A stretch of 64,000 nucleotides of DNA from Candidatus Thioglobus sp. (GTDB lineage: Bacteria; Pseudomonadota; Gammaproteobacteria; PS1; Pseudothioglobaceae). The notes under the pieces were generated by a model that was not told where the DNA came from, made no database searches, and saw nothing but the letters and a program-made list of their open reading frames with translations. This document shows, piece after piece, positions 30,673 through 41,927 of this stretch. The DNA is taken from positions 1-64,000 of the forward strand of contig JAOJBP010000004.1 of NCBI GenBank assembly GCA_028228555.1, in the 5' to 3' direction. How positions within the stretch are numbered: position 1 is the stretch's first letter; each line of letters begins with the position of its first letter. Made by a program: the position numbers and the translations under genes.

Positions 30673-31566
30673 ATGATCAATTTTGACACAACACCAATCG
30701 CTACTTTAATAGATTCAGCAGCGTATACATATGCAGATATGCAGATGTATGTAATCATTATGGTTGCCCTAGTGGTAAGTATGACAATTGCAGACTTAAT
30801 CCATAAAGGCAGTAAAACATATTTTGACAACGCAGTTGCAAAATCAGAGGCGTTATTAGCTGCTGGTGATGCAGATTGCTCACTTGGTAGAGAAGAAGGC
30901 AGACTAAAGCAGCTTACTGCTGGCGATAAGGCCGGTATCATGGTAGACACATTATTGATAGATGTGGCTACTGCTGGTGAGTTTAAAAACCCAGTTCGTC
31001 GCTTAGTTCATATCTTAACAATGTATGGTTTTATTTTGTTTAATGCAGCAACTGCAATAATCATCTTCGGTGAAGAGTCAACAACGTTATTAGCCCAAGT
31101 ATGGAATACGGGTGCAATTTTGTTGTTTATTGGTTCTTTCTGGTATTGGTTCTCATTCAAAGTAGACAGCGAATCTGAAGGAGTTCCTTGGACAAGTGTT
31201 ACACTTAGAAAAGATTCATTCTCATTAGCGTTAATGGCAACTTCGGTAACAGCTATTGGCTGGTCTGCCACAAATGGTGGAACAGGTATTTGGTTTGCAC
31301 TAGTAATCCTTTCAACTGCATCATTATTTGGTGGTGTTTATTGGTCTAAATTCTCTCACATGTTCTTCAAGCCTGCTGCTGGTTACAACAAGCGCGTTAT
31401 TAAGGCAAATGGTACAAACGAGAACTTACCGCATGAAACTAGATTTGGTGGCAAAACTGCTGCAGACGATGAGTTCCAGCAAAACAGACACTCTATGGAG
31501 CTTCTTAAAGATGCACCAATGGACATGGGTCTTGGTATTAAGCGCGAAGCGCCTAATCACTACTAA
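30673..31566 (+). CDS. aprM: APS reductase membrane anchor AprM
   Basis: Putative membrane protein that takes electrons from the AprBA complex to the quinone pool. The 297 residues have about five membrane helices (roughly 20-38, 113-135, 140-160, 175-195, 200-225) and a soluble C-terminal tail. No haem or Fe-S motif is obvious. It comes directly before aprB and aprA, the order aprM-aprB-aprA known from sulfur-oxidising gammaproteobacteria. The call rests mainly on this context and the topology. Confidence 0.85.
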   Translation: MINFDTTPIATLIDSAAYTYADMQMYVIIMVALVVSMTIADLIHKGSKTYFDNAVAKSEALLAAGDADCSLGREEGRLKQLTAGDKAGIMVDTLLIDVATAGEFKNPVRRLVHILTMYGFILFNAATAIIIFGEESTTLLAQVWNTGAILLFIGSFWYWFSFKVDSESEGVPWTSVTLRKDSFSLALMATSVTAIGWSATNGGTGIWFALVILSTASLFGGVYWSKFSHMFFKPAAGYNKRVIKANGTNENLPHETRFGGKTAADDEFQQNRHSMELLKDAPMDMGLGIKREAPNHY

Positions 31567-34127: not shown

Positions 34128-34493
34128 ATGAATATTATAGAAAAGACAGACGAAGAAATTTTGGCCATCGCTCACCCATTGTGGGATGATTTGATAAAAT
34201 TTTCTAACAATGCAAACTATGGGGCCTTTACGCGCAACTTCTCAGAAGATTTTTTACGAGGCGCAAATGAAGTTGAAATGGGCAAACAGTTTGCTCGTAG
34301 CGAACTAACCAAGGGTTTAGATAAAGGCGCTGATTACTTAGGCATGATCCGCCGTGGAGAACATGTGACTGTTTTGTACAGACAAACCAACAATGGCAAG
34401 CTCAACATTGAAAAGAAAGGAGAATACCTCGGTCGTTTAGTCTTAGGTTATGAAAGTGATGTTATTAAAATTTTTGGCGCAACTATTTTTTAA
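34128..34493 (+). CDS. Uncharacterised small protein downstream of aprA
   Basis: I do not recognise this 121-residue protein. It has no membrane segment, signal peptide or cysteine. The N-terminal half is helical (EILAIAHPLWDDLIKFSNN, then YGAFTRNFSEDFL) and the C-terminal half is beta-rich (EHVTVLYRQT, KLNIEKKGEYLGRLVLGYE). That pattern would fit a small NTF2/SnoaL-like alpha+beta fold, but this is a guess from shape. It starts a tight cassette with a SlyD-like isomerase 5 bases downstream and another unknown protein, right after the apr terminator. A sulfur-related role is only inferred. Confidence 0.7.
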   Translation: MNIIEKTDEEILAIAHPLWDDLIKFSNNANYGAFTRNFSEDFLRGANEVEMGKQFARSELTKGLDKGADYLGMIRRGEHVTVLYRQTNNGKLNIEKKGEYLGRLVLGYESDVIKIFGATIF

Positions 34494-34498
34494 AGATT

Positions 34499-35005
34499 AT
34501 GGCAGATTTTATTGAAGAGTCTAAATACGTTGAGTTAATCTATAAAGTTGTTGACCGAAAGACGGGTAATGTTTTTTCAAATATTGAATATCCAGTTGGC
34601 TATGTGCATGGTGCAAATGATGTCCTTGGTAAAGATGTTCTTAACGAACTTGAAGGTCGAGAAGAAGGTGATATTATTGAGATTAAGATCGATGTAGATA
34701 AGCTTTATGGGCCTAGGGATGAATCGCTAGTCTTTATCGATAAAATCGAAAACGTTCCACAAGAATACCGGATAATTGGTACCAAGGTGGTGATGGAAAA
34801 TAAAGATGGTCAGCCAAAAGATTTTTTGGTAACTAAAGTTGATGATGAAACAGTTACGATCGACGGCAATAATCCACTTTGTGGACGTGACGTCAATTTT
34901 TTGCTCGAAATCACGCTAGTGAGAGATGCAACGATTGAAGAGATGGAGGCTGGCGGTACAACCGATAGTGAGCCAAGCTTGGAAGAAATATTACAGCAGA
35001 ATTAA
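34499..35005 (+). CDS. SlyD-like FKBP-type peptidyl-prolyl isomerase
   Basis: The 168 residues follow the SlyD/FkpA layout: a split FKBP domain around an insert-in-flap domain. Visible are VELIYKVVDRKTGNVF at the N terminus, GYVHGANDVLGKDVLNELEG near 40, the acidic GDIIEIKIDVDKLYGPRDE, and the return strand DGNNPLCGRDVNFLLEIT near 122 followed by LVRDATIEEMEAGG, typical of SlyD. The histidine-rich metal tail of E. coli SlyD is missing; the tail is short and acidic. It lies between two unknown genes after aprBA, which suggests a folding or metallocentre-assembly job. That role is inferred. Confidence 0.82.
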   Translation: MADFIEESKYVELIYKVVDRKTGNVFSNIEYPVGYVHGANDVLGKDVLNELEGREEGDIIEIKIDVDKLYGPRDESLVFIDKIENVPQEYRIIGTKVVMENKDGQPKDFLVTKVDDETVTIDGNNPLCGRDVNFLLEITLVRDATIEEMEAGGTTDSEPSLEEILQQN

Positions 35006-35006
35006 T

Positions 35007-35378
35007 ATGAGTATTGAATTTAACGAATCAGAATTAGTTACCATTCAAAATAATTTGAATAATCGCTGGAGAAAAGAAAAAAAAGAAGTTCATCTAGCGG
35101 ATATTGAAATTACTAAAGAGGGCGAAGACAAGCCAACCTTGTTTCCTGCTGCTGTGTGGGAAGATCCAAATTCAACTTTTATCATCATTAAGCTTGATGA
35201 TTTTAAATACAAGAGCTTCTTCTATTATTTAAAAGATAAGCGCTTTGATACAGGTCAAGATGAGTATACGGATTTACACGAATGCACTGATAAACTATTA
35301 AAAGCCCAAGCAGATTTTGTATTAACTAAAAATACCAAAGGCTTAAATGTCCAACTTCATAAAGGTGCGGGTACTTAA
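35007..35378 (+). CDS. Uncharacterised protein, third gene of the post-apr cassette
   Basis: Not recognised. The 123-residue form begins MSIEFNESELVTIQNNLNNRW at 35007, 1 base after the preceding stop; a longer reading from 34926 would overlap the FKBP gene and is unlikely. It is acidic and lysine-rich, has no signal or membrane segment, and has a central FIIIKLDDFKYKSFFYYLKD strand-helix. One cysteine lies in LHECTDKLL. A strong terminator follows, so the three genes form a closed unit. Confidence 0.7.
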   Translation: MSIEFNESELVTIQNNLNNRWRKEKKEVHLADIEITKEGEDKPTLFPAAVWEDPNSTFIIIKLDDFKYKSFFYYLKDKRFDTGQDEYTDLHECTDKLLKAQADFVLTKNTKGLNVQLHKGAGT

Positions 35379-35441: not shown

Positions 35442-37448
35442 TTACAGTAGAGGAATAATCATTATTGCAACGATGTTGATAATCTTGATTAGTGGATTGA
35501 TTGCAGGGCCAGCCGTATCTTTATATGGGTCACCTACAGTATCACCAGTTACAGCCGCTTTATGCGTATCTGAACCCTTTCCATAGCCTTCACCTAATTG
35601 ACCATCTTCGATGTATTTCTTGGCGTTATCCCACGCACCACCACCGGTAGTCATTGAAATTGCCACAAAGATACCTGTAGCGATAGAGCCTATTAACAAA
35701 CCACCTAACGCTTCAGCACCTAACAACAAGCCGACTGCTACCGGAAACAAGATTGGAAGCATTGACGGTATAATCATCTCTTTAATAGCAGACTTAGTTA
35801 GCATGTCAACTGCTTTAGAATAATCAGGCTTCTGAGTGTAATCCATAATACCCGGCATTTCTCTAAATTGACGACGTACCTCTTCAACAATGCCGCCTGC
35901 CGCTCGACCAACAGCTTCCATTGCCATTGCGCCAAATAAGTAAGGCACAAGGCCACCTAAGAATAGCCCAATGATAACCATGTGGTTTGACAAATCAAAA
36001 GTGATAGGTTCGAACCCCTCTCTAGTGTTTAATGCATTAGTAAAGTCTGCAAATAGTACGAGTGCAGCGAGACCAGCAGAACCGATCGCATAACCTTTAG
36101 TTACTGCTTTGGTTGTATTACCAACCGCATCTAGAGGATCTGTAATATTGCGAATTTCTTCAGGAAGTTCAGCCATTTCAGCAATACCTCCTGCATTATC
36201 AGTAATTGGGCCATAAGCATCTAGTGCAACAATTACACCAGTCATAGATAACATCGCTGTTGCTGCAATAGCAATACCGTACAAACCGTCTAATGCATGT
36301 GCACCCCAAATACTCGCACAAACGGCTAATACAGGTAATGCTGTTGATTTCATTGATAAACCGATACCAGCAATGACATTAGTGCCATCACCTGTTTTAG
36401 AAGCTTCAGCAACATGCTGCACAGGTGCACTTTCAGTTGAAGTATAGTATTCAGTAACTACAACCATCACACCTGTTAGAGCTAAGCCAATGAGTGATGC
36501 ATAGAATAAGTCAATGCCCATATTCATATTAGAAGTAACAAAGTAAAATGCCACTGCGGCTAAGCCAGCAGATACAATTAAGCCTTTATATAAAGCACCC
36601 ATAATAGAGCCACCATCAGATACTTTGACGAAGAACGTACCAATAACTGAAGCAATAATAGAAACAGCACCTAGCGCTAGCGGGTAAAGGATTGCATCAT
36701 TGCCCATGTCTAGTACACCTGCCAACATCATTGTAGCAATAATCGTTACCGCATAAGTTTCAAATAAATCTGCCGCCATACCAGCACAGTCACCCACATT
36801 ATCACCCACATTATCAGCAATTACTGCTGGATTACGTGGATCATCTTCTGGAATGCCTGCTTCAACTTTGCCCACAATATCAGCACCAACATCAGCACCC
36901 TTGGTAAAGATTCCGCCGCCTAAACGAGCAAAAATAGAGATTAATGAGCCACCAAAAGCAAGACCGATCAATGCATGTAGCGCATCTTTTTGTGCAACAT
37001 CAAATGATAATAAGCCCATATAGAAGCCAGAAACACCTAATAGCGCTAAACCAACTACTAGCATTCCAGTAATGGCGCCACCTTTAAAAGCCACTTGGAA
37101 AGCAGCATTAATGCCATTTTTGGCAGCCTCAGCTGTACGACAGTTAGATTTAACTGATACATTCATGCCAATATATCCAGTTGCACCTGATAAAACAGCA
37201 CCAATCAGGAATCCTATTCCAACAGTAATTCCCAGGAAGTAAGTGATTACAATTAACAATATAACACCAACCATAGCAATGGTTGTATATTGACGATTTA
37301 GATAGGCTTTGGCACCTTCAGCAATCGCATCTGAAATCTCTTTCATTTTGTCTGATCCTGGGGATTGTTTGTAAATCCAGGTCATTGTATATAAGCCATA
37401 TAAAACAGCAATAATTGATGCCCCAATGGCGAGTGTTAGTACATCCAT
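35442..37448 (-). CDS. hppA: Membrane proton-translocating pyrophosphatase, K+-independent type
   Basis: Couples PPi hydrolysis (or synthesis) to proton movement across a membrane. The 668 residues have about 15-16 membrane helices. The substrate site [13 protein letters not shown] lies near 188 and [14 protein letters not shown] near 211; a second acidic set is near the C terminus ([14 protein letters not shown] near 634). The [17 protein letters not shown] stretch near 444 has lysine where K+-dependent enzymes have alanine, the known marker of the K+-independent class. It lies near adk and PPi-PFK, which suggests a PPi-centred energy scheme. Confidence 0.97.
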
Positions 37449-37582
37449 ATTCTCTCCTCAAAGTTATAGTATTACTTCTCTCGGAACGATTGTACTTCAG
37501 TTTTGAATTTTTGAATTAGTATTTTTCGGCAAAAAAATAGCTCGATTAACGAGCCATCATGAAAAATATGAAAAATAAATTG

Positions 37583-38749
37583 CTAGTCTTTTTTCCAGTA
37601 TTTTGTTTCGATACCATCGCCTAAATCTGCTTCAACAAGTCTTGATCGTAGTTTTAACAATTTCTCAATTAAAGCGGGTTCAGCTGCTTCATAGCCTTGG
37701 ACATCAGGTACTCGCTTGACCACAACTCCTAATAATTCTGTAATTGCATTACCAATAGAATTTTGCGAAATAGTAACAATTAATTTACCCTGATCATTAC
37801 GATATATTAGCTGTTTAAAGGCAGGTTGCCAGCGAATCGATGATGAGTATTTTGGATCGTCAATGCATTTATCACGGACTTTTTTAGCAGCAGAAAGGAA
37901 GCATGTGTTAAATAAGAGTGTACTTTCTATTAATTCTGGGAAGTAAGCCGCTTTTGGCACTGAAGAGTTGCGACAAGATACCTGGGAAAAGAATGTCCGA
38001 TAAAAATCTAAAAATCCTTTTAAAACCAAATCATATTCATCCCAAAACTTAACATTTTTTAGACTATCAATGCCACCCGTTACTTCCCAGCTTGGCAAGC
38101 CTTGAGGGTAGCCCGTCAACTCAAGACCTGATGATGAACCATCAATTGGCTTTAAGATTTCAAAATTAAGTTTTGATTGAAACTCTGCATATACGTCTTC
38201 CATGTAGTTTGCAAATAAAGAGTGCTGACCGCCATCAGTTAGATTTGGATTATCAGGATCTGACAATTCAGAATTTTTTAATTGTTCCTTATCAAAAACA
38301 ATAAAGTGATTATGAAGCATGCGGATGCTTGGGACACCGGGCGATGTTATTGGCCAGGTTGAATCAAGTGACGCTTCACCACATAGCACCAGATGCTTAT
38401 CTGCATCTGGAAACTCTTCTAGCATAAATCCAATGATTATCTGGTTCATGCGATTCCAAGCATTTTTGACTTTATTTGGTACTTGGGTCCGTCTTACCGG
38501 CCTACCTAAAGGATTTAGTATGCTTTTGGAGGTGTTATAAATAATGGAGCAGTCAAATAAATTTGAATGACCTAGAGCTTTACGATACAGGAGCAAATCT
38601 TCACTATTACTCAGTAGACCATTATTTTGAGCAAGGTCTGCTAAATTCTCAAATGAATTGAAAAATTCATTTGGTTTCATTCCTTCTGGTACATCTAAAG
38701 GGATAGGTCTAAACGGTGTAGTAATTTGCCTTGGTCCAATTTTCATCAT
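37583..38749 (-). CDS. Uncharacterised 388-residue protein between hppA and adk
   Basis: I cannot name this protein. It appears soluble, with no signal or membrane helix. Features: a proline-rich N terminus (RQITTPFRPIPLDVPEGM), HLVLCGEASLDSTWPITSPG near 119, then LHNHFIVFDKEQL near 145 with an HxH pair (His146, His148), and a helical C-terminal half. The HxH following a beta strand recalls HIT/GalT-type nucleotidyltransferases, but the full HxHxH is not present. A minus-strand terminator lies just upstream, so it probably has its own promoter in 38750-38771 or depends on readthrough from adk. It is clearly a real gene by length and codon pattern. Confidence 0.75.
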   Translation of the reverse strand: MMKIGPRQITTPFRPIPLDVPEGMKPNEFFNSFENLADLAQNNGLLSNSEDLLLYRKALGHSNLFDCSIIYNTSKSILNPLGRPVRRTQVPNKVKNAWNRMNQIIIGFMLEEFPDADKHLVLCGEASLDSTWPITSPGVPSIRMLHNHFIVFDKEQLKNSELSDPDNPNLTDGGQHSLFANYMEDVYAEFQSKLNFEILKPIDGSSSGLELTGYPQGLPSWEVTGGIDSLKNVKFWDEYDLVLKGFLDFYRTFFSQVSCRNSSVPKAAYFPELIESTLLFNTCFLSAAKKVRDKCIDDPKYSSSIRWQPAFKQLIYRNDQGKLIVTISQNSIGNAITELLGVVVKRVPDVQGYEAAEPALIEKLLKLRSRLVEADLGDGIETKYWKKD

Positions 38750-38771: not shown

Positions 38772-38802
38772 AAAAAAAAGCCTATGCTTAATCAACATAG
38801 GC
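38772..38802 (-). terminator. Terminator after adk (minus strand)
   Basis: On the minus strand GCCTATG TTGATTAAG CATAGGC followed by eight T residues. It separates adk from the unknown gene downstream. Confidence 0.82.
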
Positions 38803-38830
38803 CCTTAATTTTTCAGGAAAGGGTTAAAGC

Positions 38831-40761
<1,931 letters not shown>

Positions 40762-41328: not shown

Positions 41329-41522
41329 GCCTATAAATTATACGCCAACCGGTTTTTAACGTGAAATTAAGTCACGGCACTTTGTTTCAAAATATGATTT
41401 TTTTTAAACTGTTATGGGGCATAATATTGCCATTCAAAAAGTGAATAAATTTGAGGAGAATGGATAAAGTAAGGCCTAAAAGCTGCTTTATTTTTGTTGG
41501 TACTATCAATAGGAGATTAGTG

Positions 41523-41927
41523 ATGGCAGTATTATTTTCAGAAGAGTGGATGAATCAATTGAAAGATGAGTGGAATGCATCTGAAGAAGTGCGAGGTAAG
41601 TTGGCTGAGATTAACTTCTCTTCAACTATCGCTTGCGGCTTTAAGGGTGACGGAACGCCCACTGGTATTTTTGTGGTTGAAAATGGTGAGTGCGTTAAAG
41701 CTGGAGATTACAGTGGTGAGAGCGTTGATTGGGATATGCGCGCTGATAAGAAAAATTGGATGAAATGGCTAGACAAGCCTCTAGGTATGGCATCAATGGG
41801 TATGGCGGTTACAATGGGAAAGTTGAAGTTTGAAACAGGTGATTTTGGTGCAATGATCAAAGACCCAAGAATGGCAACACCTTTTGTGAAAAGTTTTGCT
41901 TTAATGGGTGCTATTGGCGGTGAGTAA
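41523..41927 (+). CDS. SCP2 sterol-carrier-domain protein
   Basis: A 134-residue single-domain protein of the SCP2 lipid-binding fold. The pattern is typical: helical N terminus (SEEWMNQLKDEW), beta strands with GIFVVENGECVKAGD, then ADKKNWMKWLDKP and a final hydrophobic helix region with MGKLKFETGDFGAMI. I chose the ATG at 41523 because GGAG lies 9 bases upstream; a longer reading from 41451 has no family support. Such proteins may bind fatty acyl groups or quinones. Confidence 0.82.
   Translation: MAVLFSEEWMNQLKDEWNASEEVRGKLAEINFSSTIACGFKGDGTPTGIFVVENGECVKAGDYSGESVDWDMRADKKNWMKWLDKPLGMASMGMAVTMGKLKFETGDFGAMIKDPRMATPFVKSFALMGAIGGE

Follow-up and report, generated by a model that had tools for sequence, protein, structure and literature searches.

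What does a protein of 388 residues, lodged between the genes for an H+-PPase (hppA) and adenylate kinase (adk), do in Candidatus Thioglobus? We addressed this question for the window, a stretch of 64,000 nucleotides from one contig, in which the PPi-PFK gene pfp lies beyond adk (Table 1). We tentatively favor the view that the protein is a soluble nucleotidyl transferase or hydrolase, HIT/GalT-like, of sulfite oxidisers that use the adenosine 5'-phosphosulfate (APS) route, with APS as the leading candidate substrate.

A conserved family outside the searched databases

A sequence-only reading had described an unrecognised protein between H+-PPase and adenylate kinase, and both the coordinates and our database searches bear this out. 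The protein had no Pfam match above threshold (best E 0.18, below the cut-off), and none of 37 family members matched Pfam. NCBIfam and PHROGs likewise gave no match above threshold, and the PDB sequences yielded nothing significant, either for the protein itself or in a profile search of the family. The ORF is a genuine gene and lies far beyond chance: when one genome for each GTDB species was scanned, 301 stretches proved to encode a full-length homologue, and the frame stays open in distant relatives.

Table 1. Features of the window discussed in the text, with codon numbers referring to the 388-residue protein.
Feature	Position	Strand	Remarks
hppA	35442-37448	-	neighbor of the 388-codon gene
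Rho-independent terminator	37536..37558	-	predicted; past the 388-codon gene, ahead of hppA
388-residue family protein gene	37583..38749	-	ATG to stop; 43.9 kDa, pI 5.7
Codons 306-348, RWQPAFKQLIYRNDQGKLIVTISQNSIGNAITELLGVVVKR	37706..37834	-	predicted beta-beta-loop-beta then helix
LHNHFIVF, codons 145-152	38294..38317	-	holds H146 and H148; start of predicted last strand of the HIT-like core
GVPSIRM, codons 138-144	38318..38338	-	invariant in alignments; directly ahead of HxH
GEASLD, codons 124-129	38363..38380	-	invariant; end of predicted strand 119-126
RPVRRTQ, codons 83-89	38483..38503	-	R83, R86, R87 and Q89 invariant in alignments
Rho-independent terminator of adk	38776..38806	-	between adk and the 388-codon gene; fold z -4.8
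adk	38831-39481	-	neighbor of the 388-codon gene, on the other side from hppA
PPi-PFK (pfp)	39505-40761	-	beyond adk

The family is widespread, strongly conserved and chromosomal. Identity ranges from 54 to 95% overall, across at least two classes; 80 of the 301 stretches, with identities of 71-95%, were kept as the homologue loci compared below. Whole-genome searches found the gene in 27 of 57 relatives. A draw of genomes from the class gave matches in 36 of 274, about 30 of them real carriers and the remainder weak or fragmentary, and a draw from the phylum gave 31 of 398, with identities of 54-63% in other classes. Presence across genomes is near all-or-none, and no homologue was found in the viral contigs, plasmids and phages searched. 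Family members have masses of 43.5-44.1 kDa, and in an alignment of 37 sequences spanning classes the mean column identity is 74%, with about 120 invariant columns (among others R7, R14, H61, R83, R86, R87, G124-D129, G138-M144, H146, N147, H148, D172 and T337-G341). Even if its substrate differs from the one proposed here, a conserved enzyme-like family is missing from the copies of Pfam and NCBIfam searched.

A predicted HIT-like fold with an incomplete motif

AlphaFold2 models were built from 45 sequences (m92deb1a8656e; pLDDT 80, pTM 0.86) and, for a different member, L094, from 81 sequences (mdcb4061b7dae; pLDDT 81, pTM 0.86). Both place strands at residues 44-47, 52-56 and 65-71, a helix at 92-112, and strands at 119-126 and 146-153. 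HIT cores consist of an antiparallel sheet with one long helix and carry their motif on the last strand; the order of elements in both models fits such a core, with H146 opening its last strand (146-153). The HxH pair pointed out in the sequence-only reading is therefore present, but by the models it sits at the start of a strand, not after one.

Foldseek searches of the PDB returned the same best match for both models, 2pof, a CDP-diacylglycerol pyrophosphatase (Cdh) of the HIT superfamily (E 0.0098 and probability 0.85 for the first model, E 0.017 and probability 0.66 for the second). Ranks 2-4 for the first model were GalT-like (1zwj, 1z84 and 6k9z), and its best BFVD match was a viral HIT-domain protein; behind 2pof the second model drew low-probability beta-lactamases, and GalT-like enzymes were absent from its top 50 matches. 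With either model there was no Foldseek match at E <= 0.001, and TM scores on the query were low (0.24-0.29). In hhalign comparisons, profiles of GalT, HinT, Cdh and Apa2-like proteins, all of them shallow, scored no better than unrelated controls.

Models and Foldseek matches together give moderate support for a HIT-like fold, which we favor over a claim of proven HIT membership; the protein probably has a divergent fold of this type, so that the predicted structure is not one unrelated to nucleotidyl transferases. Of the HIT/GalT likeness proposed from the sequence, the HIT part has moderate backing in the shared best match and the order of elements, and GalT-like matches came from one model only; sequence profiles confirm neither, and the third His or Gln is lacking for both. 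It is rather unlikely that the likeness is spurious and that the protein has some other, possibly new, alpha/beta fold and another role in sulfur oxidisers. Foldseek E values of only about 0.01, the negative profile-profile tests and the incomplete motif would fit such a case; it would leave unexplained why one HIT protein leads the searches of both models, why GalT-like enzymes and a viral HIT-domain protein are among the leading matches of the first, and why strand order and HxH position are as in HIT, with both histidines invariant.

Conservation of His146 and His148 was one of two points on which the sequence-only reading had staked itself, the other being the fold, and both histidines are invariant in every aligned homologue, down to 57% identity, in alignments of 37, 45 and 81 sequences. 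The HIT motif reads H-phi-H-phi-H-phi-phi, and HxHxQ in the GalT branch. The family has the first two histidines only: at the third position the 37- and 81-sequence alignments show Ile or Met, so neither full form of the motif is present. His148 is the putative nucleotidyl-accepting residue, GVPSIRM, whose S141 is invariant in the family alignments, is a possible phosphate-binding loop, and the cluster of R83, R86, R87 and Q89 is a candidate anion-binding site. Codons 306-348 may possibly correspond to an incomplete second HIT-like half of the kind found in GalT; the models place strands at 311-317, 323-329 and 342-348 and a helix at 350-373 in the C-terminal part, and the sequence lends a second half no support.

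Known enzymes resemble the protein in different respects. In Cdh, strands and a helix precede H-x-H in an order that is comparable by eye, but Cdh carries a full HxHxH (NHFHIHIS), is 251 residues long and has an N-terminal hydrophobic segment; no sequence or profile similarity links it to the family. The Arabidopsis GalT-like ADP-glucose/APS phosphorylase (AT5G18200; 1zwj, 1z84) and E. coli GalT (6k9z), a uridylyltransferase, are similar in size, and GalT-like enzymes share with the protein a conserved Ser ahead of H-x-H and perhaps the two-half architecture, whereas the GalT motif is HPHGQ and that of the family HNHFI. For Apa1/Apa2 Ap4A phosphorylases (PF19327/PF09830; 4i5t) the parallel would be nucleotidyl-transferase chemistry, known for Apa2 and inferred here. 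The Apa2-like motif is HKHLQ, and the family has neither a PF19327/PF09830 match nor HxHxQ. Of 53 genomes tested, a set made up mostly of carriers, only 4 had Apa2-like genes.

APS reductase as correlate of an isolated gene

In the Gammaproteobacteria draw, aprA was found in 27 of 30 carriers and 54 of 244 non-carriers (Fisher p 3e-13, relatedness ignored), as called by TIGR02061 above its cut-off; in one carrier aprA was split over contigs. The carriers lacking it were G022, G638 and G620, the last 64% complete. Outside Gammaproteobacteria the counts were 18 of 23 carriers and 5 of 21 chosen non-carriers (p 7e-4, relatedness again ignored). Many genomes with aprA do without the 388-codon gene. 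The family occurs almost exclusively in bacteria that oxidise sulfite by the APS route, and among the genes compared, aprA, and with it APS metabolism, is its informative correlate and the stronger link.

Other pathway genes were set aside. PPi-PFK was present in all complete carriers, in 50 of 54 aprA-positive non-carriers and in 15 of 26 genomes without aprA, and since aprA-positive non-carriers have it nearly as often, its co-occurrence was rejected as uninformative. Nearly every carrier tested outside Gammaproteobacteria lacked RuBisCO, so Calvin-cycle CO2 fixation is not the link. Replacement of ATP sulfurylase (Sat) by the 388-residue protein was likewise rejected, as every one of the 80 genomes tested has Sat, whether carrier or aprA-positive non-carrier; by the same count an APS phosphorylase would be redundant.

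Loss of the gene is documented within Thioglobaceae. The closed 1.4-Mb genome G012 holds a decayed copy with 10 in-frame stops (L026; G012:C1:381399-382538), G029 retains a remnant, and G033 and the genus g3 have none. All four retain aprA and sat, and G012, G029 and G033 also retain PPi-PFK and RuBisCO. Vesicomyid-type reduced genomes have lost the gene and kept aprA and sat. Because genomes that lost the gene keep aprA and sat, it is dispensable for the APS pathway.

The neighborhood tells a different story from the one first proposed, in which hppA and adk favored a nucleotide- or PPi-linked role. Predicted terminators lie on both sides of the gene, and most of the Thioglobaceae loci examined retain a U-run hairpin at the position of the adk terminator; judged from these sequence elements, the gene is most likely its own transcription unit, monocistronic in Thioglobaceae. 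The order pfp-adk-X-hppA was found in no more than 29 of the 80 homologue loci and is practically confined to Thioglobaceae; 51 of the 80 had no hppA, adk or pfp neighbor, some of them owing to a short contig. A further 40 loci, other classes included, showed no conserved partner gene, and apparent partners outside Thioglobaceae were rejected after neighborhood clustering as antisense shadows or scattered paralogues. The argument from neighbors thus falls away; the APS idea of the sequence-only reading is kept as a candidate through the co-occurrence with aprA. An enzyme of a PPi/AMP block, working with H+-PPase, adenylate kinase and PPi-PFK, would suit the neighbors seen in the window and in 26 of the 80 loci, and we consider it very improbable given the isolating terminators, the restriction of the arrangement to Thioglobaceae and the similar frequency of PPi-PFK in aprA-positive genomes without the gene.

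The surrounding region holds further genes without a Pfam match. Three small ORFs of 121, 168 and 150 residues lie between aprA and hppA (34128-35378, + strand), in an order kept in 12-14 of the 80 homologue loci. Pfam gave no match for any of them; the 168-residue product is SlyD/FKBP-like by NCBIfam, and its ORF overlaps the 150-codon one in a different frame. A 158-codon ORF between the HAD hydrolase and YfcE genes (41451-41927, + strand) is conserved in Thioglobaceae loci and had no Pfam or NCBIfam match, and the gene ahead of aprB, at the AprM position (30673-31566, + strand), had no match in the copy of Pfam searched.

A proposed reaction on APS

On balance we lean toward nucleotidyl-transfer chemistry. 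If the protein works as HIT enzymes do, the alpha-phosphate of an adenylyl anhydride would be attacked by His148 together with His146. The anhydride would most likely be APS made by AprBA, and an adenylyl-histidine would form as covalent intermediate. AMP would then be passed to phosphate (APS + Pi -> ADP + sulfate), as by ADP sulfurylase (adenylylsulfate:phosphate adenylyltransferase, APAT), and adenylate kinase would recycle the ADP; the alternative acceptor would be water. The link to APS reductase makes APS the leading candidate for a special substrate; as the main substrate it is possible, if somewhat doubtful.

With water as acceptor, the protein might instead be a HIT-like housecleaning hydrolase that removes Ap4A/Ap3A, adenosine phosphoramidate, APS or CDP-lipid by-products, an activity that is useful, dispensable and conserves no energy. 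Such a role would agree with a best structural match that is itself a hydrolase of CDP-diacylglycerol, with a monocistronic gene that reduced symbionts can lose, and with redundancy beside Sat. We think it unlikely, since a general clean-up enzyme would hardly track aprA so closely and the strong conservation across classes suggests a specific substrate.

Several sulfur oxidisers have been reported to show ADP-sulfurylase activity, for which no gene is known outside one organism. A bolder version of the nucleotidyl-transfer reading, which we also rate as improbable, is that the family is a divergent, previously unrecognised HIT-type branch that phosphorolyses APS and is the gene behind this activity in many Apr-pathway oxidisers. 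If so, it would offer these bacteria, next to ATP sulfurylase, a way out of APS that does not depend on PPi, and would change the energy accounting of sulfite oxidation, with ADP and adenylate kinase in place of PPi-dependent ATP sulfurylase. Being highly conserved and unannotated and tracking APS reductase, the family is a candidate for the ADP-sulfurylase gene that can be tested directly.

According to reviews, APS can leave the pathway by two routes, either Sat with PPi or APAT with Pi, the latter completed by adenylate kinase (PMC8551704; PMC8232776). The proposed reaction is that of APAT in Thiobacillus denitrificans, a sulfur oxidiser that has APS reductase (PMC8551704, PMC8232776). The family could be this published enzyme ("ADP sulfurylase", Bruser et al. 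2000) and already characterised, which would be compatible with our preferred reading and share its mechanism; we regard the identity as quite unlikely. The title of that paper places APAT, an APS-using nucleotidyltransferase, in a new family. Also in favor of the identity, a Thiobacillus genus has the 388-residue family in 6 of 7 genomes and the Apa2-type PF09830 domain in 0 of 7. With a mass of about 41.4 kDa and a GalT/Apa-like HxHxQ, APAT would differ from the family, which has 43.5-44.1 kDa and HNHFI, and we provisionally set the family apart as an uncharacterised divergent HIT variant. A magnetic-coccus genome study found APAT absent from strain UR-1 (PMC6783814), a result that covers APAT and not the present family, and the 6 apt sequences counted in SMDB are keyword-based, so they are no guide to homology.
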